A DNA stretch of 35,593 bases from Robiginitomaculum sp. Its GTDB lineage: Bacteria; Pseudomonadota; Alphaproteobacteria; Caulobacterales; Maricaulaceae. Shown here one piece after another: positions 6,503-28,127 of the stretch. Location of the stretch: assembly GCA_023301505.1 (NCBI GenBank), contig JALZUP010000256.1, forward strand, positions 1-35,593. Reading direction: 5' to 3'. How positions within the stretch are numbered: the first letter of the stretch is position 1; every line of letters starts with the position of its first letter. The notes below the pieces were generated by a model. That model saw nothing but the letters and a program-made list of their open reading frames with translations. It was not told where the DNA came from and made no database searches. The translations under genes and the position numbers were made by a program.

Positions 6503-8479
6503 ATGGCTGATAAGACTTGTAATTTTGACTTTGAGGAAAATGCGGACAAAAGAAAAGGCTTTCCTTATGTAGCTTTGATGGTTCTAGAAGACGGCAAATT
6601 AGGGCGTTCTTTCTTTGATTTAGATCGAATTTATGGCGGCAAAAATGACGTAACCGTAGAAGGAGAATATAAGGCCAGCCAAGGAGATATTATAGAAATA
6701 CAATCAGGAGGAAGTTGGAAGAATAAATATCGCCGATTTTACGCAGTAGTGGATTGTGAATTAATTGACATAGGAGATGCTACTGGCAGTAGTAAAAAGA
6801 CGGATGTAAAAAAATACCTCAAAGGAAAATTAGAATTAGCTGATCTTTCTAATGAGGTAGCTAAAGCATTAGAAACCGCTAAAGAGAAAATAATTACGAC
6901 CTCTCCTGTAGACCTACAAAACTCCATAGTAGCCAAGATGGAAACCGCAACAGGTAACGACCCGCTCCTAGGCAAACAAATAAACCTACGCCTACCCAAT
7001 GGCGAAAAGCGAAGCGCCCAATTTGCGATCATAGAGCTATCGGCACTAATCCCAAGTCACAACCCTTTTACCTTCGCCGACCATCCCGACTTCCCACTAA
7101 ACGATAAAGGGTACAACATCAATGATCGGAACTATGGAGGCGATACACAAGCTCAGGCACTCGTCCAACAATACGCACAAGAGCTACGCCCCGAACTACT
7201 AATCACGACCTCCAAAACGCCACAAGGTAGTCCTATCGTAGATAATAGCAATATTGTCGTATCTGGTAACAATCGAACGATGTCCCTGCAACTAGCAGCA
7301 TCCAAATATCCTGAACGATATAGCGACTATGTAACAGAGCTGCGAGAAGAATACGATAGTTTTGGTTTCGAAGAACCTTTGCAATCCTTAGACAATTTTG
7401 AACATCCTGTATTAGTTCGGATTGATTACGATTTCCCTGAGTACACCACACAAGAATTAGCCAAATACAATCAGTCAGAAATAAAGGGCAAACGGCCTGT
7501 AGACAAAGCCATTGAGCTATCCAATATACTGAGCGAGAATAGCGCCTGTAGCACCTCCATTCCTAGCGTATTAGAAAAATACGAGCGCCTATCTGACTTT
7601 TACAGCAATGGCAGCGACCAAAAACGAATGATGGACCTATTGCTAGGTTGTAATTTACTGACGCCCCAAGAAACCTCCAGCTACTACGATAAACAAAGTG
7701 GCTTTACCTCTGGTGGAAAAGATTTTTTAGAGGCTACGCTATCCGCTTCGATCTTGGATCGCACGGCCATCTTAGCATCTGACAAAGCAGGCGTAAAAGC
7801 TTTACGAAAAATAGTAGTCACTACCTTGCCTACGCTGATGCTAAACAAGAGCCTTAGCGAGGATCGACTGACAGATTGCATCAATGATGCGATCATCTAT
7901 CAAATGGAAATGGTGGCGAGTGGTTTGAAGTTTGGTGACTATGTGAATCAAAAAAGTTTATTTGGAAATAAAGTATGGAACCCGAAAAGTGTGGTCCTGA
8001 ATCGCTTAATGAACCTTGGCAGGAATAAATTCAAGAAGGCTATAGAAGGATACAATAGATCGGTGGCTGGCAATCAACAAGGTGCTTCGCTTTTTGGCGA
8101 TAAGCCTGATAGTAAAGAGGCTTTTGAATTTTATGTGTTATCTGCGATTCCTGAAAAGGAAAGAGAATTGATTGAGCGGTTTGTTGGGAAAGTGAGTGCT
8201 ATTGGATGCACAGATGTTTCCTCTTCCGTAGACGTTTCATCGGACGGCTCCAAGCCATCCGATGAATCTGTTATCGAAAACACTATTATTCCTGTAGAGT
8301 CAACGGATGACTTGCAGTCGTCCGATGACAAAGCACTTAAGAAGAAACTCACAAATGCTTCTAAGCTTATCGAAATATTGGCTAAGAAGGCGGAGCGAGA
8401 GAAAGACGAGAAACTTGCTAAGAAGTTGGTGTTGGCTAGGAAGATGATTGTAGTACTAGGTAGAGGATTGAAGGCGTAG
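6503..8479 (+). CDS. Polyvalent protein with DdrB/ParB-like domain, 658 aa
   Basis: The DdrB-like ParB-superfamily domain of phage and plasmid polyvalent proteins covers about residues 165-560. Signs are the opening VAKMETATGNDPLLGKQINL, the segment LNDKGYNINDRNYGGD, PELLITTSKTPQGSPIVDNS and the ParB-like core VVSGNNRTMSLQLA (SGNNRT at 254-259). The first 160 residues look like a separate beta-rich domain. Near the end, SSDGSKPSDE (579-588) and STDDLQSSDD (600-609) are encoded by palindromic DNA repeats. They precede a Lys/Ala-rich helical tail nearly identical to that of the giant protein next door. Polyvalent proteins are typically delivered with DNA into a new host; DNA protection or replication support is inferred. 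A B repeat follows the stop. Confidence 0.85.
   Translation: MADKTCNFDFEENADKRKGFPYVALMVLEDGKLGRSFFDLDRIYGGKNDVTVEGEYKASQGDIIEIQSGGSWKNKYRRFYAVVDCELIDIGDATGSSKKTDVKKYLKGKLELADLSNEVAKALETAKEKIITTSPVDLQNSIVAKMETATGNDPLLGKQINLRLPNGEKRSAQFAIIELSALIPSHNPFTFADHPDFPLNDKGYNINDRNYGGDTQAQALVQQYAQELRPELLITTSKTPQGSPIVDNSNIVVSGNNRTMSLQLAASKYPERYSDYVTELREEYDSFGFEEPLQSLDNFEHPVLVRIDYDFPEYTTQELAKYNQSEIKGKRPVDKAIELSNILSENSACSTSIPSVLEKYERLSDFYSNGSDQKRMMDLLLGCNLLTPQETSSYYDKQSGFTSGGKDFLEATLSASILDRTAILASDKAGVKALRKIVVTTLPTLMLNKSLSEDRLTDCINDAIIYQMEMVASGLKFGDYVNQKSLFGNKVWNPKSVVLNRLMNLGRNKFKKAIEGYNRSVAGNQQGASLFGDKPDSKEAFEFYVLSAIPEKERELIERFVGKVSAIGCTDVSSSVDVSSDGSKPSDESVIENTIIPVESTDDLQSSDDKALKKKLTNASKLIEILAKKAEREKDEKLAKKLVLARKMIVVLGRGLKA
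8237..8329 (+). repeat. Two in-frame palindromic elements in the DdrB-like gene
   Basis: Copy 1 (8237-8266) encodes SSDGSKPSDE from TCATCGGACGGC-5 nt-GCCATCCGATGA. Copy 2 (8300-8329) encodes STDDLQSSDD from TCAACGGATGAC-5 nt-GTCGTCCGATGA. Both keep the reading frame and lie in a Ser/Asp-rich linker before the C-terminal tail. Confidence 0.9.
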
Positions 8480-8487
8480 CGTAGGCG

Positions 8488-8570
8488 AAATCATACATTA
8501 TATATACATCTAAGATGCAAGCTAAATGGATATATGAGGTATGATGTATGATTTATAATGTATGATTTAC
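8488..8570. repeat. B repeat after the DdrB-like gene
   Basis: An AT-rich imperfect inverted repeat: AAATCATACATTATATATACATC on the left and GGATATATGAGGTATGATGTATGATT on the right, around a loop with AAGCTAAATGG. It lies 8 bases after the stop and runs into the A repeat. Confidence 0.7.
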
Positions 8571-8628
8571 GACCAACACGAACAGGGGCAACGCCCCGAC
8601 ACCTTGTAACCCATGACGCAGTCGTGGA
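8571..8628 (+). repeat. A repeat in the leader of the giant gene
   Basis: Two stem-loops in a row: GGGGC-AAC-GCCCC, and CCCATGAC-GCA-GTCGTGG, separated by GACACCTTGTAA. The element ends 15 bases before the ATG at 8644, as other copies do before their genes. Leader-RNA regulation is possible. Confidence 0.75.
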
Positions 8629-8643
8629 TAAATAAAAAAATAA

Positions 8644-11600
8644 ATGAGAAATCTAGAATCACTTATAACTATACACAATCAGATAATAAGAGCGGAAGTA
8701 TCCGACCTAGCAACCATACAATCAGAATTCGAAGCCTACGCCCTACTAGAGCAAGAAATCAAAGAAGAGATGAGCGACACGATGACGCTTCCTGAATTGC
8801 GTCTAGCTTCTAGATCTAACTATAGGAATGAAAATAAGGAATATTATGTAGACGCTTACTTTGATAAGCTATTAAATGTATTTACGATTGGGACTAGTAA
8901 GATTTTTGAAGTTACTAACATGTCAAGCTCTAATGTGGAAATTATTAGAGAAAAATTATTAAAGCAAACGCAAGAGAGCATAGACAGAGCGAATGAAACA
9001 CGCAAACAACTACAAAGGGAACGAGAAGCAGCAGACATCAAAAGAGGCGCAACGATGAAGAAATCCCTATCGAATCCAGAAACAATAGCGGAATACGAGT
9101 TCTTTCTACGCATCAAATCTAGATCAGACTTAAGCACCGAACAAAGGGAACAATACGATGCCCTAGTTGCCGAAAAGACAATCACTCAAGAGAGGGCCGA
9201 CAAAAAAAAAGCGTCTGTATTGGCTCAGGTCCAATTGGATGGCACAGATATGACGATCATCAAAGGGTATCATTCTAAAAAGAATTTTGACCTATGGATC
9301 GTAAAGCTTTCAGATAGGGTGGATGGCCCCGTCTTCAACGATTTGAGAGCGAAGGCCAAAAGGCTGGGTGGCTGGTATAGCCGATATAGTAGAGATGGAG
9401 CGATACCTGGTTTCCAATTCAAAACCGAAGAGAGTGCAAATACCTTTGCAGGATTGAAAAATGGAGATGTAGATAACAGCAAATCTATAGACGACCAATA
9501 TGACGACAAATTACAACGAAACGCCGCCAAACTAATTGCAATGGCGGACCGATGGGAAGAAAAGGGGCAGGAGGTATTGACACGCGACAGACTAACAAAT
9601 ACTTCCCGTAGGGCGAGAATGGCTGCGAATACGGAGGCAGACGCAGAACATAAGATCTACTTCGCCAAGGTACTTCGAAAAATAGCGGAGGCCATCGAAA
9701 ATGGAGAATCAACTACACTGGAAAACATTAGTTCCGCTATACAGTTGAGCAATCTATTAAGCATTTGGAATACAGCCTATTCTGATAGAATGAGAAAAGA
9801 AAACCATCCATACGGCCAAAAACCACCAAAGGATATAACCAAGGATGCCGAGTTTATAAAGATGCCCTACCCTTCTTTCCATAAAGACAATATGCAAAGC
9901 TGGGTCAATGAATTAGAAAACAAGAAAGGGGCTATGCTAATAGCCAAACGAATAGAAAAGCAACTACGAAGGATTCCGCAAAGCGAACACCTATTCGATG
10001 CGAGAAAAGTGCCAATAACTGATTTGGAAAAAATGGCTTATAAGCTATCTAGAAGTTGGGACAAGGATAAGATATTGGATCAAACATTAAGATTCAAGCG
10101 ATTGCAGAAAATGGGCCTCAAAAACTTACCCACCCTACGATCAGCCGTCAGAGAATTAGCAAAATTTTCCGAACGGACAAGCGCGCTTACACCCGAACAG
10201 GAACAGGCGAAGAAAATAAAAGCATTAGAACGTAAATTCGTTGGCAGAAAGATACCGGGCTTTTTTCCTACACCTACCGACCTCATTAAGCAGATGCTAG
10301 AGATGGTAAACATCGAGGAGGGAGATACAATCTTCGAACCTTCCGCTGGTTTGGGCCATATAGCCGATGAAATCAAAGAACAATATCCTGATAATGAATT
10401 GGAGGTAGGCGAATATAATTCTTCTTTATCTGAGGCATTGACCGAAAAAGGGCACAAGGTGGTTTGTGATGACTTTTTAGCATGTGATAGCACTAAGTAC
10501 GATGTAATCATTATGAATCCTCCTTTCGAAAAAGATCAAGATATCGAGCACGTCCTACATGCTTATGAAATTTTAAACCCTGGTGGCAGGATAGTGGCTA
10601 TTATGGCAAATAATAAAAACAGTACCCGTGGAGAGCTTAAGCAAAAGTTTCAGGATTTCCTCACAGAAACAAATGCCTATGTAGTGGATAATCCCAGCAA
10701 CTCTTTTCGCTCTGCCTTCCGACCTACTGGTGTTAATACGATTACGGTCTCTATCGAAAAAGAAGCGGATGCAGCGGAGGTGGATGCGGTGGAAGCTTTG
10801 CAAGAAGAATTAGATGTGTTGTCGGTCACGGAGATGCCATCGAACGAAGACGGAGCTTCATCGGACGGCGCTCAGCCATCCGATGAATTTGATCAGGTGG
10901 AAGAGAATATCGAAGAAAAGTCGTCGGATGGCTTGCAGCCGTCCGATGACACGGTGGCGGAGGACAGCCGTACCGAATTCACGAAGGAGGAGCAGGAGGA
11001 CTATGAGCGTTTCCTAATCGACAAGGAGATATACGAAAAATTACTACCTACTTTGGTGGATCGGTTTGTTAGATTGGGCTGGCAAAAGACGAAAGGTAAT
11101 GTAACTAGAGCGATTAGAGAAAGCCCTATTAAAAGAAACCATATACTTAAAGGAGATAATTATTTTTGGTTTCGGGATGGAGAAAAAGAAAATGGATATG
11201 CTGTGACTATGGAAGGGAATGCTTGGGATGGATCTGATTTATTAGATGCTTTGGCATCTAGACACCACAAGCTCCAGCAAACAAATAAAGCATCTCTACT
11301 AAAAGACTATGCAAAACAAGACTTAAAGAGATGGTATTTCACATATACCTTTGCATATAATTTAAGACCAACTATCGAAGATTTAGCCAACATACATTTC
11401 CAAGATGTACTCGATAAAGAATCTATCAAGAGCTTACCAATCAAAAACTATAAGACGGGCGCTATGAAGCCAACGCTATCGGTGAAGGCAGAAAAGAATG
11501 GTCTTTGGTTTTCTCAAACACAAGCTTTTAATATTCAAGCGGCTGTAAAAATGCAGTTTGCAGATACTAAGCCTAGTAAATTTGAGACAGACAGATACAA

Positions 11601-14600
11601 TGAGTTCATGGCCGCTAGGGCAGATCGCTGGAAATATACCAATTACAAAATGGGGTCTTGGGGTGGCGTTTGGGTATTTGAAAAAGATGGCCGATTGTTG
11701 ACTAAGGAAGGGGCTAAAACTTTGTCTGATATGGCGATGGTGCCTACTTTTCTTGAAAAGGATAAAGCTTCATCGGACGGCGATCAGCCATCCGATGAAT
11801 TTGATATTGATGCTATTGCTACAGAAGAGTCAACGGAGCCTATGGAGTCTGTTATTCAAGATTTCCCGCCATTGCACGAGATAACGGAGGATATTTTCAT
11901 GAAGCAGGTGTATGACGAAGGTAGAGACGCGCCTGTAATGTTTCTGAATAAACCATATTCTGTGCAAAAGAGGTTTGCAGCAAATGATAACTGGCGGAGA
12001 AATGCGGGTGTAATAGAGGATCTTAAAAACCATTATAGATCCGTAGTGGCGGGTAAAATATTGGATGGCGTCGAGGTATCAAAAGAGGTTCTAGACCAAT
12101 ATGATTTTAAGTACCTGCTACAAGAAAGAGAAACCGAGATAGAAGTACTGAAAATCGAAACTGATTTGTTTCCTGCTCCTAAGCGAGGCGGCAAGTACAA
12201 CAAGGCAGAATGGAGTAATATTATTCAAATACTAGCTAGTACGGCTAAATATTATGAAAATCCCTCTAAAGTGATGCAAGGAATAGCGGACACGCTAAAG
12301 CCTTATGATGCGTACTGGAGGAATGTAGTATCCAAGGGCAGTAGAGACGATTACTTTACACGTAAAATGTTTGGAGTACCCAATTCTGTTGCCTTAAATT
12401 TTTTAGTACCTAGAAGCGGCCCATTAGATATTGTTAAAAAGTTTGAAGATAAAAATAATCGGACCTTAGATAAAGTCAATGAGCACTTCCAACAAGCGGT
12501 CAAGGTTATTATCAAAAGAATGAATGATTTGTTATCGGTTTTAAATGATCGAGAAATTTGGGAAACGAATGATTTTGAAACCTTTGTCAAAAAAGCGCAG
12601 CTATACTATAGGAAATCGGATGTTACTAGCGAAAATTTTCGATTTTTAATGGAAAAGAAATTTTTGCGACCAATGAACCTGCCTCGTTCTTTCTTGAAAG
12701 AGGATATGAGAAAGGAATTATACGACAAGACCGCTTATTGGGGGAACGCCCTTAAATCTAGTGAATTAGCAGATTACTTATTAATAGGAAAAATAACGAT
12801 TGATGAGTTTTTTGAAATAGTAGGCGAGGACAAACGAAACGCACGGGAGCCTGTAGAATTATCCAACGATAACCGCCCTATTACTCCAGAAGAGCCAACG
12901 GATGACTTTCGGCCGTCCAATGAGATCACAACCAACACCCCACTTTGGCAACTAACAGAAGCAGAAGCATTTAAGGCCATATTAAATGGCTACGACATGG
13001 ACTGGATGAATCGTCGAGGGGAACGAGTCTCTATTCAAGAGACTATTTCGGAAGATGCGAAACATAATGAAAAAATTGATTTAGACAATAAAAACGCTTA
13101 TACGCTTGGTCTAAAAAATGTATACGAACAGGACGTATCCGCTGCTATTTTAGCTGGAGAAGAAGTGCCCGACAAGGTCTTAAATCAATACAGGTTTAGG
13201 GACTTAGAATATTTCAGAGATGACAGGGTGAAGGAAATCGAATATACTAAAATAGATGTAGACCTCTTCCCCGCACCTAAAAGAGGAGGAGTATATAATA
13301 TTAGTGAATGGGCAGAAATAAGAAACATCATCGACAGAGTATCTAACGGAAGAAGCAATAACTCTGAATTCCCTAACAAGTCTAAAATCATGTTATTGGC
13401 TTACGAAGCATTACGGCCTTACAATGCTTATATGAGTCATGTTTTTTATTACTACCTATACAATTACTCTAAACCGAAACAATGGGAAGTGTCCAGTTCT
13501 GTGTTTGGATATCAATCCTTTAATGACGATGCTTTTTTTGGCTACCAAGATAATGTGAAGTTTGAAATGCACTTTGCCGACCGAAGCAGTAGAACACTAG
13601 ACAATGTAAAAGCCTATTATGTAGAGCGTTTTCAAATTGCTACCAAAAAAATAAATCAATTCTTAGCCTTTATGAATGATGATGCACTTTGGAAGTCCAA
13701 AGATGCACAAGAATTTGTTGATAGATGGAGACCCTATAAAAAACAATATCTAATAGAGTCTAACTTAATTAGAAATTTCATTAGAAATAAATATTTACGT
13801 CCTTCGCTAGACCTACCCAATTGGATGAACAGAGATCGAGGCGATGAAAAAATATTAAAAGAATTAAATTTCGGAAAGGGGGCTAATCCTCATTTTGATA
13901 ATGTCATTGATGGCTTAATGGATGGGACAATCAATCTATCTGAATTAAAAGAGATTGTTGATATGGAAAATGGCGTATTAGATAAGTCGGAATTTAGCCG
14001 AAATAAAATCCGCAATACTATCTCAACCGACCCCGTTATAGATGCTGTCATTTCAGAAGAGTCAACGGATGACTTTGAGTCGTCCGATGACAATCCAGAC
14101 CCAACATTCGTACCACGACCAGAAGGTGCTACTAAAAAAGTACCAGCAGATGATCCTGTTATTTCAGAAGAATCAACGGATGACTTCGAGTCGTCCGATG
14201 ATAGCGTAAAAGAGAAAGCCAGCGTCTCCGATATTATAGCCAAAGACGATGCAACGATTACTGACTTCACAGAAAAGATAGAAAAACGGCTAAGAGATGC
14301 CGAAAAGAATAAGGAATTTAAAGATTCCGAATTTCGAAAGCCTGGTGCAAGGAAAGAGCAACGAGCTTATGAACTGATCGTCTATCAAAATTTATCGGAC
14401 CTAGAGGACGACCCTGTTTTTGCATATAAGACAGTGAACAAGGATAAGGTATGGCCGAAGCTGGACATAGATCAGGAGCGAGTGAACGGCGTCAGTGCAG
14501 GTGCAGCGTATTGGAAACAGCAATTGCGAAAAGCAATGAGTAAGCGGCCTTTCAATAGTGCCGATGCACGTAAAGTGTATGTAAAAGGGATCAGCTTATT

Positions 14601-16479
14601 AAATACAGCATTGTCGGAAGCAAAAACATTAGAGGAAACGATCAAGGCAGCACAAGTTTTGATTCGTCCAAAAATAGCGAAAAGTTACATAGGAGATGAT
14701 GAAAGTCTAAAAAGCCCTAGCGGTATATATATTAGCTACAAGATCACCAGTAAGTTAAAAGGCATCTTTGGTGTCAAATTCCTAAACCTTGTAAATGTTC
14801 GTAGCGCAGCAGCCAAGAAGCATTATACAGATGCTAGCATATATGATGCTTTCACGCAAGAACAACAGGCGGTAGTGGTCGCTAAGAAGATAGCTATCGA
14901 AAACAAAAATATAGCATTCTACCAAAAACGCTTAGCGGAATTCCCTGAAGGATACAGCGCTATCCCAGGATACGAAAAAGCAATTAATCGAGTAAAAACA
15001 AATATAGCTAAACTAGAAAACCTAGAATTAGAAGGATTATTAAAGCCCTGGGAAATAGCAAGAGAAAACGATTGGTCATGGGCCGATCCTAGCAACAATA
15101 AAAGAAAGGCGCCTACTCAAAAGACGCAATTCAAAATTAACAGCAAAGAGCCTTTGTCACACATTATTCGAAAGGGAGGCATAGAGTTGCCTTATGTGAC
15201 AGCTACGAATATAGATAATGTACTAGGCAAAGAATTAGGGTTCTATTCTATTGAATATGGCAATAGCCTGCCAGATAAGGAACGGGAAAAACATGCCAAT
15301 TATTTTTATGCGGCGATGACGGATCTAGAGGAGATCACCGGATTGGACATCAAAAAGATCAATCAAGCAGGAAAACTAGGAATTGGTTTCGCTACTAGAG
15401 GTACGCCTGGTAGCGCTGCAACTTATTGGTCCTCTTATACGATCATCAACTTGAATCGACGAAATGGAGATGGTTCTTTGAATCACGAATGGGGGCACTA
15501 CATGGATGACATGTTGTCTGTGCTCAGCGGTAAGGAGGCAAAGATTAACGGCAAGTTGGGCCGCTTCGCTAGTCGCCTTGGTGCAGAAGAGCAGATAATT
15601 AACAGAGCCTTTAAAAAGATCATGAACTTCGTTTACGAAAGCGAGAACACGATCAAAATAAATGTGCCTGCGCAAAGTAAAACACGATACAACATTAAGA
15701 AAGAAAGTGTTGAGGCTACCATCAAGTATATCCAGCGGTATGAGAAATATTGGACGGGCTCAAGAAGACAAAAACTACTGTACGGGTTCGCTGCTCATTT
15801 GCATGGATTGGAATATATAGAAGTAGAAGTGCCTATTAAGGGATCTAAGTATTTAGCGGATTCCGTGGCGATGGGTAGCAATTATTGGATTATGCCCGAG
15901 GAGCTATTTGCTAGAATGTTTGAAGCCTACATTTGGAAAAAGATGGCAGACAAAGGCGTATTCAATAACTACCTACAATCTGATCCTTATAAGAAGTATT
16001 TTTCTTCCGACAAAGCGCCACCCTATCCTATGGGCGAGGAATTGGAAACGATCTATGCCTTATTCGATAATCTAATCGAGAAGGTAAAGGAAGCACTTGA
16101 CGCTACTAGTGATCGGGTGTTCTCTGGCAACCGAGTGGATATTATGGAGGCATTGCCTAAAGAAGTCGATACGGCTGCTAAAAAGAAGAAACCTGCGACT
16201 GAATTGCCTTTTGGTGTTTCCTCTTCCGTAGCCGTTTCATCGGACGACTCGAAGTCATCCGATGAATCTGTTGTCGAAATACCTATTGTTTCTGTAGAGT
16301 CAACGGATGACTTGCAGTCGTCCGATGACAAGGCGCTTAAGAAGAAGCTCAAAAATGCTTCTAAGCTCATTGAAATACTTTCTAAGAAGGCGGAGCGAGA
16401 AAAAGATGAGAAACTTGCTAAGAAATTAGTCTTGGCTAGGAAGATGATAAAGGTGCTGGCTAAGGGACTGAGGGCGTAG
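8644..16479 (+). CDS. Giant polyvalent protein, 2611 aa (N6-methylase + HEWGH domain)
   Basis: A multidomain protein of the large polyvalent type. Residues 1-200 are mostly helical. About 208-270 is a YHSKKNFDLWIVKL...LGGWYSR module seen in such proteins. About 539-720 is an N6-adenine methylase-type domain with GFFPTPTDL, motif I FEPSAGLGHIA (564 on) and catalytic NPPF (625-628). About 770-1040 is unassigned. About 1083-1405 and 1439-1790 are two copies of one domain, each containing DLFPAPKRGG. About 1850-2140 is unassigned helical. About 2150-2500 resembles the LPD1-type zincin-like domain, with HEWGH at 2281-2285 and YPMGEELETIYALFDNLI near its end. About 2525-2611 is the tail shared with the upstream gene. 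Palindrome-encoded linkers separate the domains. Methylation and proteolysis after delivery into a recipient are inferred from the family. Confidence 0.88.
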   Translation: MRNLESLITIHNQIIRAEVSDLATIQSEFEAYALLEQEIKEEMSDTMTLPELRLASRSNYRNENKEYYVDAYFDKLLNVFTIGTSKIFEVTNMSSSNVEIIREKLLKQTQESIDRANETRKQLQREREAADIKRGATMKKSLSNPETIAEYEFFLRIKSRSDLSTEQREQYDALVAEKTITQERADKKKASVLAQVQLDGTDMTIIKGYHSKKNFDLWIVKLSDRVDGPVFNDLRAKAKRLGGWYSRYSRDGAIPGFQFKTEESANTFAGLKNGDVDNSKSIDDQYDDKLQRNAAKLIAMADRWEEKGQEVLTRDRLTNTSRRARMAANTEADAEHKIYFAKVLRKIAEAIENGESTTLENISSAIQLSNLLSIWNTAYSDRMRKENHPYGQKPPKDITKDAEFIKMPYPSFHKDNMQSWVNELENKKGAMLIAKRIEKQLRRIPQSEHLFDARKVPITDLEKMAYKLSRSWDKDKILDQTLRFKRLQKMGLKNLPTLRSAVRELAKFSERTSALTPEQEQAKKIKALERKFVGRKIPGFFPTPTDLIKQMLEMVNIEEGDTIFEPSAGLGHIADEIKEQYPDNELEVGEYNSSLSEALTEKGHKVVCDDFLACDSTKYDVIIMNPPFEKDQDIEHVLHAYEILNPGGRIVAIMANNKNSTRGELKQKFQDFLTETNAYVVDNPSNSFRSAFRPTGVNTITVSIEKEADAAEVDAVEALQEELDVLSVTEMPSNEDGASSDGAQPSDEFDQVEENIEEKSSDGLQPSDDTVAEDSRTEFTKEEQEDYERFLIDKEIYEKLLPTLVDRFVRLGWQKTKGNVTRAIRESPIKRNHILKGDNYFWFRDGEKENGYAVTMEGNAWDGSDLLDALASRHHKLQQTNKASLLKDYAKQDLKRWYFTYTFAYNLRPTIEDLANIHFQDVLDKESIKSLPIKNYKTGAMKPTLSVKAEKNGLWFSQTQAFNIQAAVKMQFADTKPSKFETDRYNEFMAARADRWKYTNYKMGSWGGVWVFEKDGRLLTKEGAKTLSDMAMVPTFLEKDKASSDGDQPSDEFDIDAIATEESTEPMESVIQDFPPLHEITEDIFMKQVYDEGRDAPVMFLNKPYSVQKRFAANDNWRRNAGVIEDLKNHYRSVVAGKILDGVEVSKEVLDQYDFKYLLQERETEIEVLKIETDLFPAPKRGGKYNKAEWSNIIQILASTAKYYENPSKVMQGIADTLKPYDAYWRNVVSKGSRDDYFTRKMFGVPNSVALNFLVPRSGPLDIVKKFEDKNNRTLDKVNEHFQQAVKVIIKRMNDLLSVLNDREIWETNDFETFVKKAQLYYRKSDVTSENFRFLMEKKFLRPMNLPRSFLKEDMRKELYDKTAYWGNALKSSELADYLLIGKITIDEFFEIVGEDKRNAREPVELSNDNRPITPEEPTDDFRPSNEITTNTPLWQLTEAEAFKAILNGYDMDWMNRRGERVSIQETISEDAKHNEKIDLDNKNAYTLGLKNVYEQDVSAAILAGEEVPDKVLNQYRFRDLEYFRDDRVKEIEYTKIDVDLFPAPKRGGVYNISEWAEIRNIIDRVSNGRSNNSEFPNKSKIMLLAYEALRPYNAYMSHVFYYYLYNYSKPKQWEVSSSVFGYQSFNDDAFFGYQDNVKFEMHFADRSSRTLDNVKAYYVERFQIATKKINQFLAFMNDDALWKSKDAQEFVDRWRPYKKQYLIESNLIRNFIRNKYLRPSLDLPNWMNRDRGDEKILKELNFGKGANPHFDNVIDGLMDGTINLSELKEIVDMENGVLDKSEFSRNKIRNTISTDPVIDAVISEESTDDFESSDDNPDPTFVPRPEGATKKVPADDPVISEESTDDFESSDDSVKEKASVSDIIAKDDATITDFTEKIEKRLRDAEKNKEFKDSEFRKPGARKEQRAYELIVYQNLSDLEDDPVFAYKTVNKDKVWPKLDIDQERVNGVSAGAAYWKQQLRKAMSKRPFNSADARKVYVKGISLLNTALSEAKTLEETIKAAQVLIRPKIAKSYIGDDESLKSPSGIYISYKITSKLKGIFGVKFLNLVNVRSAAAKKHYTDASIYDAFTQEQQAVVVAKKIAIENKNIAFYQKRLAEFPEGYSAIPGYEKAINRVKTNIAKLENLELEGLLKPWEIARENDWSWADPSNNKRKAPTQKTQFKINSKEPLSHIIRKGGIELPYVTATNIDNVLGKELGFYSIEYGNSLPDKEREKHANYFYAAMTDLEEITGLDIKKINQAGKLGIGFATRGTPGSAATYWSSYTIINLNRRNGDGSLNHEWGHYMDDMLSVLSGKEAKINGKLGRFASRLGAEEQIINRAFKKIMNFVYESENTIKINVPAQSKTRYNIKKESVEATIKYIQRYEKYWTGSRRQKLLYGFAAHLHGLEYIEVEVPIKGSKYLADSVAMGSNYWIMPEELFARMFEAYIWKKMADKGVFNNYLQSDPYKKYFSSDKAPPYPMGEELETIYALFDNLIEKVKEALDATSDRVFSGNRVDIMEALPKEVDTAAKKKKPATELPFGVSSSVAVSSDDSKSSDESVVEIPIVSVESTDDLQSSDDKALKKKLKNASKLIEILSKKAEREKDEKLAKKLVLARKMIKVLAKGLRA
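10858..10950 (+). repeat. Two in-frame palindromic elements after the methylase domain
   Basis: Copy at 10858-10887 encodes SSDGAQPSDE (residues 739-748). Copy at 10921-10950 encodes SSDGLQPSDD (760-769). They mark the boundary between the methylase domain and the next domain. Confidence 0.9.
11770..11799 (+). repeat. In-frame palindromic element before the duplicated domains
   Basis: Encodes SSDGDQPSDE (residues 1043-1052), with arms TCATCGGACGGC and GCCATCCGATGA. A degenerate relative (EESTEPMES, near 11828) follows. Confidence 0.88.
11889..14000 (+). repeat. Internal domain duplication in the giant protein
   Basis: Unit 1 spans about residues 1083-1405 and unit 2 about 1439-1790. Shared markers in the same order are LDQYDFKYL versus LNQYRFRDL, ETDLFPAPKRGGKYN versus DVDLFPAPKRGGVYN, RPYNAY-like LKPYDAYW versus LRPYNAYM, RTLDKVNEHF versus RTLDNVKAYY, and FLRPMNLP versus YLRPSLDLP. 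A palindromic linker separates the units. Divergence is substantial, so the duplication is old. Confidence 0.85.
12895..12924 (+). repeat. In-frame palindromic element between the duplicated domains
   Basis: Encodes PTDDFRPSNE (residues 1418-1427). This is the most degenerate in-frame copy: the right arm reads GGCCGTCCAATGA. Confidence 0.8.
14062..14202 (+). repeat. Two in-frame palindromic elements after the duplicated domains
   Basis: Copies at 14062-14091 and 14173-14202 both encode STDDFESSDD (residues 1807 and 1844 on). Each is preceded by VISEE, so a longer segment of about 111 bp has duplicated around the palindrome. Confidence 0.9.
16237..16329 (+). repeat. Two in-frame palindromic elements before the giant protein's tail
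   Basis: Copies at 16237-16266 (SSDDSKSSDE) and 16300-16329 (STDDLQSSDD). Spacing and flanks match the pair at 8237-8329. The first copy has GAC/GTC inner stem bases where the partner has GGC/GCC. Confidence 0.9.
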
Positions 16480-16484
16480 GCGGG

Positions 16485-16586
16485 AAATCATAAATCATAA
16501 ATCTTACATCATAAATCTTATATCCATCATGGTTCGACCTGCATGGATTTATGATGTATGATGTATGATGTATGATGTATGATTTT
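16485..16586. repeat. B repeat after the giant gene
   Basis: Left arm AAATCATAAATCATAAATC with TTACATCATAAATC, right arm with four tandem ATGATGT-type heptamers. The loop contains GGTTCGACCTGC. It lies 5 bases after the stop. Confidence 0.75.
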
Positions 16587-16632
16587 CTTAAATAGTGCGT
16601 ATTGTTTTATTTGTGCTTTTTCTTAAGTACTT

Positions 16633-16654
16633 ACCCCCAACCCCCAAGGGGGAG
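16633..16654. repeat. C repeat (ACCCCCAACCCCCAAGGGGG)
   Basis: A GC-rich motif with CCCCC-AA-GGGGG pairing. It recurs at 21895-21917 and inverted at 22029-22050. The rest of the gap 16587-16832 holds a perfect hairpin GAACAAAATA...TATTTTGTTC (16731-16760) but no convincing gene. Confidence 0.65.
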
Positions 16655-16832
16655 CGATTGCTGCGTTTCTTAAGTTTTAAAAGATACTCTTTGGTGAATG
16701 AAATACAGTCAACATCTAAGCGGGAGGCTCGAACAAAATACCGGAGGGATTATTTTGTTCTAGAATTTTTGGTTCTTTTTTTTCAATGAAAAAAGAACGT
16801 ACATCCAGTCAACACCTAATACGTAAATTTTA

Positions 16833-17327: not shown

Positions 17328-18257
17328 ATGGCTATAATAAGAAACAATAATACCCTAGTCGGCAGAGGCTTATTTCAAGCTAGTGATTTCTATTACAAAG
17401 GTAGGCAATCGCCTCCTATAGCGCATAATATACCCGATGGTGTTATCGCTGCCTTCGAATTCATAAACGATCTATTTGCTCCTCGATACGGTTTAGATGC
17501 GAAACCGTACTTTACGAGCACCTTGCGATTACCAAGCGATTCTAATTACGAAACTAAAAACGGTAGGCTCTCTACACATAGTCAAGAATTAGCAGCGGAT
17601 GGCAATTGGTCCAATGGACTCAGTAGCCCTACGCAGCATATCGAAGATGAGATAATTCTGATTATCGGACATGATATTTCTGTCAAAGGTTTTATTTATG
17701 ACGAGTTGCGCCAGTTAGGCGTTAATGGGATCGGCACGTATTATCGAGATGGCGGGTCTAATACTTTTCTGCATTTAGATGGTCGGCAGAAATTTACGTA
17801 CTTCAAGCAACTACGATACGAGCATCGGAAAAAAGCAGCGGCCCTGCATCGTAGCTTTATGGCGGAGCTGTCAGCATTGACTGTGGCACCTATGCCTATT
17901 ATTCCTACAGCGCCTACGAGTACGCCTATACCTGTAACGAGAGTCGATCCTGTGTCTAAGGAGGTAATCATCGTGGCGCGGATAGATACACTTACGGGCG
18001 CGCCTATCGCTGCTTCTACGGCTACACCTATTATCGAGCCTTCTTTTATAGAGTCAGTGGTGGCTTCGACTAAAGATGCGGGGAATGATGTGTTACTTGC
18101 TTTTACGGAGACGGATGGCGGGGAAGATCCTATTGCGACTGCTGTTCAGTCACAAAGACGAAACTTGAAATATGTGGTGATTGGATTGGTGGCGGTGGGC
18201 TTGTTTTTTGGCTTGTCTAGGCTGATCGTTAGTGCTGGGTTGTTGCCTGATAAATAG
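17328..18257 (+). CDS. Peptidase M15-like cell-wall hydrolase with C-terminal anchor, 309 aa
   Basis: The metal-binding pattern of M15-type peptidoglycan peptidases is visible. The first part is RLSTHSQELAADGN (H84, D91), corresponding to SxHxxGxAxD. The second is GIGTYYRDGGSNTFLHLDGR (H149, D151), corresponding to the GxGxY...xHxDxR end. The glycine of the first motif is replaced, so activity needs checking. A Pro/Thr-rich stalk (about 185-240) follows, then a C-terminal membrane helix (about 280-300). The likely role is cutting peptide bonds of peptidoglycan during particle entry, exit or DNA transfer (inference). A strong terminator follows. Confidence 0.72.
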   Translation: MAIIRNNNTLVGRGLFQASDFYYKGRQSPPIAHNIPDGVIAAFEFINDLFAPRYGLDAKPYFTSTLRLPSDSNYETKNGRLSTHSQELAADGNWSNGLSSPTQHIEDEIILIIGHDISVKGFIYDELRQLGVNGIGTYYRDGGSNTFLHLDGRQKFTYFKQLRYEHRKKAAALHRSFMAELSALTVAPMPIIPTAPTSTPIPVTRVDPVSKEVIIVARIDTLTGAPIAASTATPIIEPSFIESVVASTKDAGNDVLLAFTETDGGEDPIATAVQSQRRNLKYVVIGLVAVGLFFGLSRLIVSAGLLPDK

Positions 18258-20329: not shown

Positions 20330-20357
20330 TCATCGGATGGCTAGCGCCGTCCGATGA
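20330..20357. repeat. Intergenic copy of the 29-bp palindrome
   Basis: TCATCGGATGGC-4 nt-GCCGTCCGATGA. The arms match the in-frame copies of the polyvalent genes, but the loop is one base shorter. It abuts the decayed frame at 20068-20325. Confidence 0.85.
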
Positions 20358-21653: not shown

Positions 21654-22050
21654 TCCCACGACTGCGTCATGGGTTGTAGGATGTTGTCCCTTCAGGACTT
21701 TTATGACGTAGACAGGAAGCCCCTTACTTTTGTGAGGGGCTTTTTTTTGTCCCATGAAATGTAAGTCAGTATAAACATTTTATATTTTTGACTTGAAGCG
21801 TGGTGGATGTATGATGTATGAATTCTGATTTATGATTTCTGATTTTTTTAGATGGTGCTGATCCTTTTGATCCTAGCTTTTGCTTTTGTTTCTTACCCCC
21901 AACCCCCAAGGGGGAGCGTGCAGCGCTTTCTTTTAAGTCGCTGCTTTTCTTTTTGATTCGATCTTTTTCTTTGGTAGCTCTCTTTTTAGCTGATCTTTTA
22001 TCCTGTGATAATCCTTTTTTGATCTGATCTCCCCCTTGGGGGTTGGGGGT
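21654..22050. repeat. Gene-free stretch with degenerate A, half B and inverted C repeats
   Basis: It contains a degraded A repeat (21654-21710), a strong terminator AAGCCCCTTAC...GTGAGGGGCTT with T-run (21717-21748), one arm of a B repeat (21803-21850), and a pair of C repeats in inverted orientation (21895-21917 and 22029-22050). I see no gene. Confidence 0.65.
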
Positions 22051-22066
22051 TGTTTATCCCGTGCGG

Positions 22067-22176
22067 TAAATCATACCTCATACCTCATACCTCATACCTC
22101 ATACCTCATATATCCATTCTGTTTTGAGCCATACAGATACAGTAGATATGAATTCAGACCTATGAGGTATGATTTT
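22067..22176. repeat. B repeat after the lysozyme gene
   Basis: Five tandem CATACCT heptamers form the left arm, and the right arm ends ACCTATGAGGTATGATT. It lies immediately 3' of the - strand lysozyme gene. The heptamer number differs from other B copies. Confidence 0.72.
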
Positions 22177-23046
22177 TCAAAGCAATCCACTACCCTTAAT
22201 CAAAACCTTAAACCCAAAAAACAAGACTAAAGCAATCCCACCTATCAACACCAATTTTACTGCTCGAAAAGAGCGGGCATTAGACATTAAAGGCGTATAA
22301 GCAATTACGCCCTGGTGCAAGGTGTAAGTTACGTCATCCAGTATAGCGTTTGCTTGTTGCGATATAGTAGTCTTCGTGTTGCTATTAAAAGAGGGCATAG
22401 CAACTGCCGCCAGTACGCCACCGCTTTCCATATCTGCCATTAAATTAAAATCTGGGAAATGATCTAGCCGATTTCTCCATCCATTCAGGTAGATACTTTG
22501 ACCAGGATCTTTCTCTACTATCTTGTCATAGAAGTTCCACCGGTATCTTTTGTAATAATTATGCAGGAGTGAGGGATCTGCTCTATTGATCGCATTTAGA
22601 GTTCTAGTACCTATGCGGCCGTCTTCCTGTAATTGTTCCCCCATCAAATTAAGGGTCATTTGTAGCATCTTGGTGGCTCTGGAGACACCATGGTTGATGG
22701 CGGCATCAAAATATATATTGGCTACTGGTTGACTATTGATATAGTCGCCTTTGATTCGTTTCCAATAATCAACTTCATATATATCTAGTACTGTTTGAGT
22801 AGTGAGCGATAGACTATCGCTTGGCGTTGGTATCCTTTTTAAGTGTTTGGCAAGTGCGGGAGCGCTGATCCCTTTATTGGTGCCTACTAGTAGCGGGGCT
22901 TCGTTGTTGGTGCAATAATAATTATTACTATTCCCTTTGACCCATGCTTGGTTTGTGCAGACCCAATTGCCTCTGTCTTGGGCTTTGTCGGTGTATCCTC
23001 CTTCTGCTGTTAGTACTTTTTGGGCTGCTTGGTTGTAGGATGCCAT
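22177..23046 (-). CDS. GH108-type lysozyme with C-terminal membrane anchor, 289 aa
   Basis: Residues 1-185 match the phage-type N-acetylmuramidase of family GH108 with its peptidoglycan-binding region. The catalytic glutamate lies in TAEGGYTDKAQDRGNW (E15). The segment NIYFDAAINHGVSRATKMLQ (about 110-129) follows, then DGRIGTRTLNAINRAD (about 142-157) and YKRYRWNFYDKIV. After a linker, residues about 264-281 are a membrane helix near the C-terminus, which is not usual for the family. It should cut the glycan strands of peptidoglycan at the membrane surface. An A repeat lies 14 bases before the start. Confidence 0.88.
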   Translation of the reverse strand: MASYNQAAQKVLTAEGGYTDKAQDRGNWVCTNQAWVKGNSNNYYCTNNEAPLLVGTNKGISAPALAKHLKRIPTPSDSLSLTTQTVLDIYEVDYWKRIKGDYINSQPVANIYFDAAINHGVSRATKMLQMTLNLMGEQLQEDGRIGTRTLNAINRADPSLLHNYYKRYRWNFYDKIVEKDPGQSIYLNGWRNRLDHFPDFNLMADMESGGVLAAVAMPSFNSNTKTTISQQANAILDDVTYTLHQGVIAYTPLMSNARSFRAVKLVLIGGIALVLFFGFKVLIKGSGLL

Positions 23047-23060
23047 GGTTTATTTTTTTT

Positions 23061-23150
23061 CCACGACTTCGTCATGGGCTACAAGGTGTCGTCCCGTTGG
23101 GACTGTTCGTGCTATTCGTGCTATTCGTGCTATTCGTGCTATTCGTATTT
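23061..23150 (-). repeat. A repeat upstream of the lysozyme gene
   Basis: Stem-loops GTCCC-AAC-GGGAC and CCCATGACGAAGTCGTGG are in the leader of the lysozyme gene, preceded by tandem ATTCGTGCT-type 9-mers (about 23105-23145). The 9-mers are a slippage-prone tract. Confidence 0.75.
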
Positions 23151-23655: not shown

Positions 23656-24525
23656 CTATTTTTTCACTAATTTCTTTGCCGCTTTGATCCAGTCAGTCAC
23701 CACAGCTCTTCTTATGCTATTCGTAAATAAAATATTATTAATTCTATCTACTGTTGCAGTCGACAATTGCTTGTAGTTCTTAATGCCATTAGCGGATAAT
23801 GCAGCTTCTATTTTTGCCCCAATACCTTTTATTCTGGATAAATCTTCCTCTTCTGCTTCTGGTGTCCCTTCGCCTTCTGCTTCTGGTGTCCCTTCGCCTT
23901 CTGCTTCTGGCGTTCCTTCGCCTTCTGCTTCTGGTGTTCCTTCGCCTTCTGCTTCTGGCGTTCCTTCGCCTTCTGCTTCTGGCGTTCCTTCGCCTTCTGT
24001 TTCTGGTGTTCCTTCACCTTCTGTTTCTGGTGTTCCTTCGCCTTCTGCTTCTGGCGTTCCTTCACCTTCTGCTTCTGGCGTTCCTTCGCCTTCTGCCTCT
24101 GGTGTTCCTTCGCCTTCTGCTTCTGGCGTTCCTTCGCCTTCTGCTTCTGGCGTTCCTTCGCCTTCTGCTTCTGGCGTTCCTTCGCCTTCTGTTTCTGGTG
24201 TTCCTGTTACAACTCCATTAAGGCCATCCAGCAACGCCTTTACCCTTGTGATCTCCTCTACCAATGGTTTTCTTTGAGTCGTAATTATTACTTGCAGCTC
24301 ATTTTCAGACGCCTGTGCAGCTACAGCTAAATTTTGATTAGCCTTAAGATTCCTTTGAATTTGTCCTAAGCTATCTAACTTTTCTGTTAATTTAGCTTTG
24401 GCATTCGCCTTGTTTGTCTCAAGATCAGCCTCTAGATTCGCCAAATAATTCTCTACATCTTTAATTTCTAATTCTCCACCTTCTACTTTTTCTTTAGAAA
24501 AAGCACTTTTAAATATATTAGCCAT
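23656..24525 (-). CDS. Helix-hairpin-helix protein with GTPEAEGE repeats, 289 aa
   Basis: Residues about 1-105 form a coiled coil ([20 protein letters not shown] and following). Residues about 108-228 are fifteen copies of an 8-residue acidic repeat GTPEAEGE or GTPETEGE. Residues about 230-285 ([20 protein letters not shown], then [12 protein letters not shown], then [13 protein letters not shown]) are a helix-hairpin-helix domain like those that bind DNA in polymerase- and nuclease-associated proteins. The likely use is non-specific DNA binding with a long acidic spacer. The repeat number is probably variable. Confidence 0.8.
23847..24206 (-). repeat. 24-bp minisatellite inside the helix-hairpin-helix gene
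   Basis: About fifteen tandem 24-bp units encode GTPE(A/T)EGE. Units with ACA or GCA at the variable codon form blocks (one T, six A, two T, six A), suggesting expansion by slippage or recombination. Confidence 0.93.
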
Positions 24526-25274: not shown

Positions 25275-25514
25275 CTACCGTTTATGATGTCGATGCCGAT
25301 GTCGACGCCTCACCCGACCGCCTACTTCTCCGTTTTTATAATAAGGGATGTAGTTGTTGACTACGTAATAACTTGGTTCTTCGTCCGCTTTTAGTTGGGC
25401 TACTTTTAACTCCTCTACTGCTTGGTCTTGTTGGCCGTCTTTGGCGAACATTTTCCAAAGCATAAATCCTAGTAGGGCTATTATTAATAGCATTAGGGTT
25501 TCTGTACTTTTCAT
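25275..25514 (-). CDS. N-terminally anchored Arg/His-rich protein, 79 aa
   Basis: Residues 5-22 (ETLMLLIIALLGFMLWKMFA) form a membrane helix. The end is a cluster of Arg and His (VRRRHRHRHHKR). A basic tail on a membrane protein could contact nucleic acid or bind metal; both are guesses. Two tandem A repeats lie upstream, the nearer 15 bases from the start. Confidence 0.65.
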   Translation of the reverse strand: MKSTETLMLLIIALLGFMLWKMFAKDGQQDQAVEELKVAQLKADEEPSYYVVNNYIPYYKNGEVGGRVRRRHRHRHHKR

Positions 25515-25529
25515 GATTTATTTATTAAT

Positions 25530-25687
25530 CCCATGACTGCGTCATGGGCTACAGGGTGTCGGGGCGTTGCCCCTGTTCGTGTTAGATGCTATGCTATGTT
25601 TATTTTATTTATTAATTCCATGACTGCGTCATGGGCTACAAGGTGTCGGGGCGTTGCCCCTGTTCGTGTTAGATGCTATGCTATGTT
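25530..25687 (-). repeat. Tandem pair of A repeats
   Basis: Two nearly identical copies (25530-25600 and 25618-25687), both with GGGGC-AAC-GCCCC and the perfect CCCATGAC-GCA-GTCATGG hairpins. The distal copy overlaps the 3' end of the matrixin-like gene. Confidence 0.88.
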
Positions 25688-26398
25688 TTTGACTATGTTT
25701 GTTTTACTTGCTAGGAAATAGACTATGCCTAGGATGCCTAGTATGATGAATTGGCTTCCTCCAGCGATTTTTGGCGTTGCTTTGGGACTCATTCCTGCTT
25801 CTACTTCTAGTATTTTTCGCTCTTCTGCCCATTTTTTCTTGTAAACCATAGCTCTTATATTTCCATAGAGGAAATCTACCGCTTCTACTTCATAAGGACT
25901 TAGGGCAGAATCTACTCCATTATAACTCGCATACATTAGCGCTTCGTTACTCTCACTATGGCCTATATTGAAGCTATGGCCTAACTCATGTACGAAGGCT
26001 GTAAATAGATCCGCAGTTCTGCCTGTCGTTCGCTCTCCTTTCATGATCTCTTGCCAGTCAAAATCATCATTTAGCCACACGTCTCCTAGTGCATAAGCGA
26101 ATCCTAATACGTTTTCCCCGAAAGGGCGCGGCGGTGGATTAGATCGATCACTATCACTTGAAAAATGGATAACAATATGAGCCTCTTTGATGTCGTTTGT
26201 CCCTTCGAACATGATGGGATTGAATATTCTTTCCCATAGATCGAAGCCTTTTTTGATGGCTTGTATTGTTTTTGTCTTATCTTGATCGCTGGTAAAGTTT
26301 CTAATGTGCCAACGAATTTTTCCTTGAGGAGACGGCAATATTATTTGCCTGCCTGTCATGGTGTTGACCTTTACGCCATTGTGTGTGTATGTTCCCAT
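25676..26398 (-). CDS. Matrixin-like zinc metalloprotease with C-terminal anchor, 240 aa
   Basis: The metzincin zinc motif HELGHSFNIGH (137-147) and the Met-turn ALMYASY (about 153-159) followed by LSPYEVEAVDFLYG are those of the M10 (matrixin) family. The upstream IVIHFSSD and DVWLNDD strands also fit. There is no signal peptide or inhibitory prodomain. Residues about 215-233 form a C-terminal membrane helix. It would degrade protein at a membrane, perhaps surface-layer or virion proteins (inference). It starts 2 bases after the rhodanese stop, so the two form an operon. Confidence 0.9.
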   Translation of the reverse strand: MGTYTHNGVKVNTMTGRQIILPSPQGKIRWHIRNFTSDQDKTKTIQAIKKGFDLWERIFNPIMFEGTNDIKEAHIVIHFSSDSDRSNPPPRPFGENVLGFAYALGDVWLNDDFDWQEIMKGERTTGRTADLFTAFVHELGHSFNIGHSESNEALMYASYNGVDSALSPYEVEAVDFLYGNIRAMVYKKKWAEERKILEVEAGMSPKATPKIAGGSQFIILGILGIVYFLASKTNIVKNIA

Positions 26399-26400
26399 AT

Positions 26401-26742
26401 TTAGTTTTCCATTAAGCTAGGAATTGTTTCTCTTTTATATTTGTATCGCCATCTATATATGCCTCCGTTAAGGACTTGTACATCTTTGAAATGCCTGGCG
26501 GTTAGTATACTCGCTGCTTGTTTGGCAGCTCTATTGCCTGGTGCTTTGCACATGACAATGATTGGTTTGTTTTTATAGGCTGCTAGTAGCCTTATACTTG
26601 CTACTATTGTCCCTACTGGTAGGTGGTAGCCGCCTACGTTTCGTTTGTTTCTGTCTTGGTAGTCTCTTACATCTAATAATAAGAAGTCGACTCCTTTGTC
26701 TATGTATTTTTTCTTTAGGTGTGCGGGTTCTATTCTTCTCAT
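26401..26742 (-). CDS. Single-domain rhodanese, 113 aa
   Basis: A rhodanese-fold sulfurtransferase: FLLLDVRDYQDRNKRNVGGY (about 20-39), catalytic loop CKAPGNR (C65-R71) and VQVLNGGIYRW at the end (about 88-98). The cysteine would carry sulfur as a persulfide. It has no membrane helix, which is rare in this gene block. It could receive sulfur from the desulfurase at the left end (inference). An A repeat lies 12 bases before its start. Confidence 0.9.
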   Translation of the reverse strand: MRRIEPAHLKKKYIDKGVDFLLLDVRDYQDRNKRNVGGYHLPVGTIVASIRLLAAYKNKPIIVMCKAPGNRAAKQAASILTARHFKDVQVLNGGIYRWRYKYKRETIPSLMEN

Positions 26743-26754
26743 GTTTTTTATTTT

Positions 26755-26822
26755 CCCACGACTGCGTCATGGGCTGTGAGGGTGTCGTCCCGTTGGAACT
26801 GTTCTTGCTGGACGTTTTGGGC
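26755..26822 (-). repeat. A repeat upstream of the rhodanese-protease operon
   Basis: Contains the CCCATGACGCAGTCGTGGG hairpin and a GTTCC-AAC-GGGAC stem with one changed pair. It is followed upstream by a B repeat. Confidence 0.75.
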
Positions 26823-26824
26823 GT

Positions 26825-26907
26825 AAATCATACATCATACATTTTAAATCATATATCTACTTGGTTTGAGCCGTGATGAATCTATGATGTATAATGTATA
26901 ATTTCTA
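26825..26907. repeat. B repeat after the 173-aa gene
   Basis: AAATCATACATCATACATTTTAAATCATA on the left (broken by slippage variants) pairs with TATGATGTATAATGTATAATTT on the right. It sits just 3' of the - strand gene ending at 26920. Confidence 0.68.
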
Positions 26908-27690: not shown

Positions 27691-28107
27691 TTATTTGAGG
27701 GCAAATCCTACTACTGCCAATGCAGCCACAAGGAGTACGCCAATGATGATATTATTTTCTTGCTTTGATCTTCTTTCTGTTGTGGCATTCGCTTCGTTTA
27801 GAAGCTGAATCTTTGGGTCATCTATTAATGGCCGAAATCCACATACTGTGGCGCCATTGTAGGCGTTATATATAAATGCGGGGTCGTAGTTGGCGCATAG
27901 CCACTCTTCGCCCGTTAATTGCCCTTCTAGGTCTTGGTTACATTCTTTCACGCAGGCATCATGCAAGCCTAGACTAATGCCTTGTAGATCTCCGCAACCG
28001 CACGAACATTTTCTTATTCGTTCGCAAGTTTTTCTTCTTCCTTTATTGAATGGATGATTTATGGTACATCTTGATCCACAGTCGTATTTTGCGCCGGCTA
28101 CTTCCAT
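27691..28107 (-). CDS. Cys-rich tail-anchored protein, 138 aa
   Basis: Ten cysteines lie in residues 10-89, including CERIRKCSCGCG, which could form disulfides or a metal site. Residues about 119-137 form the C-terminal membrane helix (NIIIGVLLVAALAVVGFAL). There is no signal peptide, so the cysteine domain would face outward only if the protein is inserted post-translationally. First gene of a three-gene operon headed by an A repeat. Confidence 0.68.
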   Translation of the reverse strand: MEVAGAKYDCGSRCTINHPFNKGRRKTCERIRKCSCGCGDLQGISLGLHDACVKECNQDLEGQLTGEEWLCANYDPAFIYNAYNGATVCGFRPLIDDPKIQLLNEANATTERRSKQENNIIIGVLLVAALAVVGFALK

Positions 28108-28127
28108 TTTATTTTTTTATACGAAAT

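Follow-up and report, generated by a model that had tools for sequence, protein, structure and literature searches.

The window, the 35,593-nucleotide stretch analyzed here, is the entire contig C256 (JALZUP010000256.1) of the 3.84 Mb, 474-contig host assembly of Robiginitomaculum sp. (GCA_023301505.1). Two adjacent genes on its forward strand encode the proteins of interest. The ORF at 6503..8479 (+) specifies a 658-aa protein with a DdrB-type ParB domain at residues 166–306 (PF18763, E 8.5e-19), and the ORF at 8644..16479 (+), identified from its reading frame and domain matches, specifies a 2611-aa protein. The N-terminal module of the larger protein contains a methyltransferase at residues 553–679, with an NPPF motif at residue 625. 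An unassigned region and then a duplicated domain, X1/X2, follow; the C-terminal module contains an HEWGH metallopeptidase motif (residue 2281; CLCA_X-like) and an LPD1 domain (residues 2410–2484) and leads into the tail described below. Polyvalent proteins of phages and conjugative elements can unite up to fifteen disparate domains. Several unrelated activities are predicted within this one chain, and the combination of a methyltransferase, a CLCA_X-like region with the HEWGH motif, and LPD1 makes "polyvalent" a fair name for the larger protein.

More than 100 repeat matches connect the window with contig C105, which carries genes for DnaB, UvrD, and an integrase; contigs C256, C105, and C178 are therefore probably parts of a single element or of related elements. 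Genes for an endolysin, a collagen-like fiber, integrases, DnaB, and UvrD were identified on the element; no capsid, portal, or terminase families were found among the ORFs scanned, and one match to the collagen-like fiber ORF is filed under "virion structural protein". The label "phage-type" is thus based on the homology of the two proteins together with the endolysin, fiber, integrase, DnaB, and UvrD genes.

Homology of the 2611-aa protein to other proteins falls into separate blocks. Phage relatives cover the N-terminal part to residue 706 and a PHROG match extends to residue 712, and residues 1867–2516 have relatives in records L025–L029. The L025–L029 alignments skip the stretch between residue 711 and approximately 1867–1883, which holds X1 (residues 1053–1417; 11800..12894, +) and X2 (residues 1428–1806; 12925..14061, +). 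X1 and X2 are 34% identical over 289 columns (E 3e-35; residues 1127–1393 aligned with 1490–1772). No homologues of either were found in phages, IMG/VR, or the 397 other genomes of the phylum, and their predicted structure (pLDDT 45) was too poor to give a fold.

The last 87 residues of the 658-aa and 2611-aa proteins, encoded by 8216–8476 and 16216–16476, respectively, are 84% identical, which confirms the report of a sequence-only reading that two otherwise unrelated proteins end in a near-identical tail. The likeness that it described at the DNA level was also reproduced: BLASTN of the window against itself aligned 8215–8502 with 16215–16499 (86.2% over 289 columns, E 3e-84). Outside the tail, the two proteins resemble each other only in the peptides coded by palindromes and, below the significance threshold (E 0.05), in one further stretch. 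The DNA similarity beyond both stop codons corresponds to the edge of a repeat found at many intergenic sites of the element, and the stop codon may thus be the limit of the actual duplication.

Distribution of the tail is narrow. The host assembly contains two copies, both in the window, and a comparison of the 28 window and 46 C105 ORFs of at least 100 aa showed that only these two proteins of the element carry it. At an E threshold of 0.01 the tail was detected in 0 of the 397 other genomes of the phylum (1 of 398 when its own genome is included), and no match was obtained in IMG/VR, which rules out a widespread module. A piece of an ordinary DdrB domain is likewise ruled out, the Pfam DdrB-ParB match stopping at residue 306. 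The sequence-only reading had named a location within the DdrB family domain and an occurrence on many unrelated proteins as observations that would count against a specialized tail; the tail was found to lie outside the Pfam domain (residues 166–306 of 658), and it is not spread over many unrelated proteins. Tail sharing among polyvalent proteins was seen in 0 of 7 related records (L202–L205, L025, L026, and L028), of which all but L203 are partial; the same method recovered the P1 tail-fiber pair.

The tail is composed of two modules with different histories. Residues 1–38 are coded by two 29-bp palindromes in inverted orientation, spaced by 63 bp, and residues 39–87 constitute a 49-aa basic two-helix hairpin (8330..8476, + in the 658-aa protein; 16330..16476, + in the 2611-aa protein). 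AlphaFold models of the two tail sequences predict two helices in the helical end, with pLDDT values of 92–96 over most of its length, and low-confidence coil over most of the palindrome part. The helical end is basic (about +11 to +13) and its parent proteins are acidic (pI 5.4 and 5.8); no relative of it was found.

Divergence between the two copies differs sharply between the modules. The helical half (codons 39–87) gave dN 0.075 and dS 0.86 (0.863; dN/dS ~0.09), and the palindrome half (codons 1–38) gave dN 0.107 and dS 0.055; synonymous differences occur at 1 of ~28.5 sites in the palindrome half versus 16 of ~33 sites in the helical half (P 5e-5). From the high dS combined with low dN we conclude that the helical end is an old module, kept for its protein sequence, whose two copies have been diverging for a long time while purifying selection acted on each. 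The earlier suggestion of a recent copy of just the tail is therefore not borne out for this end, and a recent gene conversion of the whole tail is ruled out for the helical half by its dS of 0.86 and is possible for the palindrome half. The unequal synonymous divergence further indicates that a single transfer of the tail as one cassette, with no conversion or constraint afterwards, does not describe its history. The palindrome block was either converted later or constrained at the DNA level, two explanations that 38 codons cannot separate. The downstream tail palindrome is identical in both copies (8300–8328 and 16300–16328), and within the tail the REP arms contain 3 differences in 58 positions versus 7 in 55 for flank plus spacer (P 0.20, not significant).

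A relaxed search of the window located ten palindromes within the two ORFs and one intergenic copy, a 28-bp form at 20330..20357 (+) that is also present on contigs C105 and C178. An off-pair in the stem (T.G or C.A) gives each palindrome an orientation, denoted A or B; all are given here on the + strand. In the 658-aa gene, a B copy at 8237..8265 (stem CGGACGGC...GCCATCCG) is read in frame as SSDGSKPSDE, and its inverted A partner lies 63 bp downstream at 8300..8328 (STDDLQSSDD). In the 2611-aa gene, a B copy at 10858..10886 (SSDGAQPSDE) follows the methyltransferase module, with an A partner 63 bp further on at 10921..10949 (SSDGLQPSDD). A B copy at 11770..11798 codes for SSDGDQPSDE, and the sequence ~60 bp downstream of it (GAAGAGTCAACGGA...) was judged by eye to resemble a decayed A partner. 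Between X1 and X2, a degenerate copy with four mismatches (12895..12923; PTDDFRPSNE) no longer forms a stable hairpin. Two A copies at 14062..14090 and 14173..14201 both specify STDDFESSDD, and the tail contains a B copy at 16237..16265 (SSDDSKSSDE) that forms a long REPIN-type hairpin with the A copy at 16300..16328. Three doublets are thus present (8237/8300, 10858/10921, and 16237/16300), each with its members 63 bp apart and in opposite orientation.

All ten coding palindromes are in phase 0 of the two long ORFs. When the three frames were read, two of the three palindrome phases were stop-free, and the use of a single phase throughout even though two are open suggests either that the peptide is constrained or that the sites have been copied from one another. 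In the coding phase, either orientation gives the same hydrophilic peptide, S-S/T-D-x-x-x-S/P-S-D-E/D. Pairing within the stems exceeds the level that the peptide imposes: 101 of 120 positions are paired versus 60.2 expected with synonymous codons, and the maximum in 20,000 synonymous-codon draws was 82, the ten copies being related and not ten independent tests. A compensated change is seen between the stems at 8237 and 16237, where GGC..GCC has become GAC..GTC (one G-C pair replaced by A-T); both sides of this change alter amino acids, G to D and P to S.

Strong RNA hairpins were predicted for nine of the ten coding copies (-16.6 to -25.1 kcal/mol, z -3.8 to -6.2), the exception being 12895, whose decay indicates that a joint can do without its hairpin. 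The segment 16216–16340 folds as a single long hairpin (z -8.1); for 8216–8340 the minimum-energy structure consists of two separate hairpins, and the long hairpin appears in the centroid only. GTAG occurs by eye within 15 nt upstream of four of the ten coding copies, all of them in the tail, and of none of the other six. Since the canonical unpaired GTAG/GTGG (or CGTC) foot tag of REPs is not consistently present, we name the element REP-like and do not claim a canonical REP.

The positions of the palindromes were compared with the domain structure of the 2611-aa protein. Its homology blocks (residues 1–712, the aligned parts of X1 and X2 at 1127–1393 and 1490–1772, and 1867–2516) make up 73% of its length. 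The eight palindromes of this protein, which form five clusters, all fall outside these blocks; random placement of five clusters would give this result with P 0.0008. The X1/X2 pair is bordered by palindromes on its two outer sides and has another between the two domains, and the in-gene palindromes mark each recognizable domain joint of the protein. No relative with another domain order, or with the same joints free of palindromes, was found in phages, IMG/VR, or the 397 phylum genomes, so the palindromes could have inserted into pre-existing linkers.

Within the host assembly the palindrome is restricted to C256, C105 (six strict copies, all between ORFs), and C178 (two copies). Over these three contigs, strict copies within coding sequence occur in no genes other than the two, save one in a doubtful 76-aa ORF on C178. 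A one-mismatch palindrome at 1626–1646 of C105 is situated within the final codons of a 196-aa ORF and is read in a phase that differs from that of the ten in the window. No palindrome was found in 40 related genomes. Elsewhere, a scan of GTDB genomes located it in 114 stretches at a minimum, almost all from Bacteroidota, Ignavibacteria, or Kapaibacterium; twelve such genomes contain 1–15 strict copies each with no control matches, among the matches listed. Inspection of 80 of the 114 stretches identified, in a Saprospiraceae assembly (L072, in G061), the exact 28-bp form that lies between genes in the window. The 117 copies in the 114 stretches comprise 97 between ORFs, 12 overlapping an ORF end, and eight deep within an ORF of at least 80 aa, one of these in an LptD gene (L112). 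In-gene location thus characterizes 9 of 10 strict copies in the window versus 8 of 117 elsewhere (Fisher 1.3e-8), a comparison limited to strict copies, with the degenerate 12895 left out, and dependent on a crude longest-ORF gene call. The corresponding figure for C105 and C178 is 0 of 8, with the copy in the doubtful 76-aa ORF counted as intergenic and the one at C105 1626 left out.

Several palindromes outside the host lie close to genes of the PF01797 transposase family. Two of the first 40 PF01797 loci examined have palindromes within ~1 kb (L180 and L192). At L180 they are located 65 bp upstream and 234 bp downstream of the matched transposase domain. At L192, from a Chitinophagales assembly, palindromes of a sister form flank the transposase gene on both sides, and a third (1654–1683) lies in frame within the Y1 transposase, a few residues past the NHFH motif, where it codes for KSSDDFKSSDD, nearly the linker peptide of the window. 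In a Flavobacteriaceae assembly, a transposase gene (L120, 825–1457) has palindromes 11 and 5 bp from its ends and is a compact candidate REPtron. Over the 114 stretches, 7 of the 117 palindromes (five loci) are within 1.5 kb of a transposase-like ORF, a raw count that carries no base rate. The transposase profile was built from eight sequences including L180 (the same gene as in L143) and L192; L120, L070, L115, and L138 were outside it, and L138 is a weak match (E 8e-4). No PF01797 match was obtained on C256, C105, or C178.

The closest parallel is the REP/REPIN (BIME) system with its RAYT (TnpA-REP, Y1 HUH) transposase. As in that system, the window element is a short dispersed palindrome of 28–29 bp, mostly intergenic over its known range, that forms inverted doublets able to fold as one hairpin; at a minority of the transposase loci examined in other genomes, copies of it flank a PF01797 gene and in one case lie in frame inside it. 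It differs in that a GTAG/GTGG foot is not consistently present, the transposase is not on the element, and two genes of a mobile element hold nine strict copies in close succession. In the available part of PMC6006769, subclass 2.4 is characterized by in-frame REP insertions within transposase genes, and atypical repeats without a tag are given for subclass 2.6 of Bacteroidetes. Rickettsia palindromic elements (RPEs) and intragenic GTAG/CGTC REPs are, in the available text of PMC3733652, read in frame within unrelated ORFs, often as doublets coding for 20–30 residues. All ten coding palindromes of the window resemble RPEs in lying within an ORF, in frame, and coding for peptide, but the sequence family and hosts differ, the copies are located at domain joints of phage-type polyvalent proteins, and next to them are a domain and a C-terminal module that are each present twice. 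PARCELs (PMC2996958, as far as available) are coding repeats with dyad symmetry tied to mobile elements, but they are 25-residue tandem amphipathic repeats found partly in membrane proteins rather than single or paired 10-residue linkers. The two proteins themselves fit the polyvalent class of Iyer et al. (2017; PMC5512222, available part) in their DdrB-ParB domain, in the combination of a methyltransferase with a metallopeptidase motif and LPD1 within a single polypeptide, and in their adjacent genes; unlike known polyvalent proteins, including DarB-like methyltransferase proteins, they have repeat-coded linkers and a shared tail. The words "linker" and "palindrom" are absent from the main text of PMC5512222, and "phage" from that of PMC3733652, in the portions available, and the titles of literature on REPIN/RAYT in prophages or on palindromic repeats in phage domain shuffling indicate no such joints. 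In-gene REPs are already known; their dense use at the junctions of polyvalent proteins is a new variation on them.

We lean toward the interpretation that the shared tail is a compound cassette, made up of a REP-like (REPIN-like) doublet and an old basic helical module, with the palindromes serving as in-frame linkers or joints. The palindromes are read as a REP/REPIN-like element that has colonized the interdomain linkers of two polyvalent proteins, and they may have acted as recombination joints. The hairpins, mobile or copied, would have been acquired by the element from some host in which they occur, and would have been tolerated in linkers, since ten additional hydrophilic residues would do no harm there in either orientation. 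Because all copies share one phase, domains could be joined, duplicated, or exchanged through recombination or conversion between them with the reading frame intact. Such phase-locked copies would then have been used to generate the X1/X2 duplication and the two tails, which is the weakest step of the scheme; the palindrome-bounded duplication and the shared C-terminal module are likely products of palindrome recombination. The helical end would have been retained on both proteins for a role that is most likely the docking of both to a common partner, for example during loading into a particle. A bolder version, which we put forward only tentatively, holds that REP-like hairpins are the standard phase-locked joints by which the element assembles and re-assembles its polyvalent proteins, the tail and X1/X2 being two products; as the soft linker that they encode is the same whichever way a copy points, recombination between any pair of copies could duplicate, exchange, or cap domains and keep the frame.

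Other explanations account for parts of these data. The whole tail could be a C-terminal loading or transfer signal read in a particle or channel, as the sequence-only reading had suggested, with the palindromes incidental. Its C-terminal position, basic charge, and helical structure agree with such a role, as does the strong purifying selection on the last 49 residues, and the tail is conserved on proteins whose P1 counterparts, DdrB and DarB, are internal head proteins loaded after DarA and Hdf (PMC12810830, in the part available). However, only two proteins of the element carry it, the polyvalent proteins of the seven related records do not share tails, and L025, L026, and L028, the three relatives of the 2611-aa protein whose ends were read, terminate without it. 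The palindrome half, moreover, changes amino acids freely (dN 0.107, dS 0.055), so that at most the helical half can be the signal. We therefore treat a whole-tail signal as possible rather than probable, and the division of the tail into DNA-level and protein-level halves narrows the loading-signal question to 49 residues instead of 88. A comparable, still doubtful standing is given to neutral, parasitic insertion, in which REP-like copies entered long permissive linkers and spread by local duplication without any role. The palindrome in the unrelated LptD gene fits this explanation, and in-frame REPs in unrelated proteins are known and have been judged to speak against functional constraint (PMC3733652, available text); the confinement of strict coding copies on three contigs to two genes (bar the doubtful 76-aa ORF) and the maintenance of phase and stem pairing argue against it.

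Selection could also act on the acidic peptide S-S-D-x-x-x-S-S-D itself, as a spacer or a maturation cleavage site, palindromy being a relic of its origin. The peptide occurs at each recognizable joint, the 2611-aa protein has the HEWGH metallopeptidase motif, and Iyer et al. argue from pervasive metallopeptidases that polyvalent activities separate during deployment (PMC5512222, available part). We consider this unlikely in view of the G/D, P/S, and Q/K/E changes that are tolerated while base pairing is kept. Still less probable is a mechanism in which mRNA hairpins slow ribosomes between domains and thereby allow stepwise folding of a 300-kDa protein: nine of ten coding copies do form strong hairpins placed between domains, but the joint at 12895 has lost its hairpin and elsewhere the palindrome is mostly intergenic.

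If, as the preferred reading has it, REP-type hairpins are in-frame linkers at domain joints, they would provide a concrete route for building polyvalent proteins, the spread and recombination of a bacterial mini-element creating new domain orders without frameshifts. Intragenic REPs would then have a consequence beyond that of tolerated junk.

Additional repeats and gene features were observed in the window. A dispersed, mostly intergenic repeat family is present at 8522–8650, 16481–16676, 21781–22095, 23044–23120, 25508–25688, 26740–26906, and 28102–28727, with many copies on C105; it may serve the element as an origin, an iteron, or a terminator-like repeat. A 309-aa ORF (17328–18257) and the GH108-type endolysin ORF (22177–23046) have ~85 C-terminal residues in common (31% identity, E 1e-4). 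Direct repeats with a 24-bp period (23844–24205; self-matches of 88–94%) lie within a 289-aa ORF (23656–24525), and repeats with a 54-bp period (33164–33607) lie in the collagen-like fiber ORF, where other frames are open over 160–180 codons. The element also carries a class-V aminotransferase (177–1418), which we take to be cysteine-desulfurase-like and which matches the phage family phrog_12787 (function unknown).
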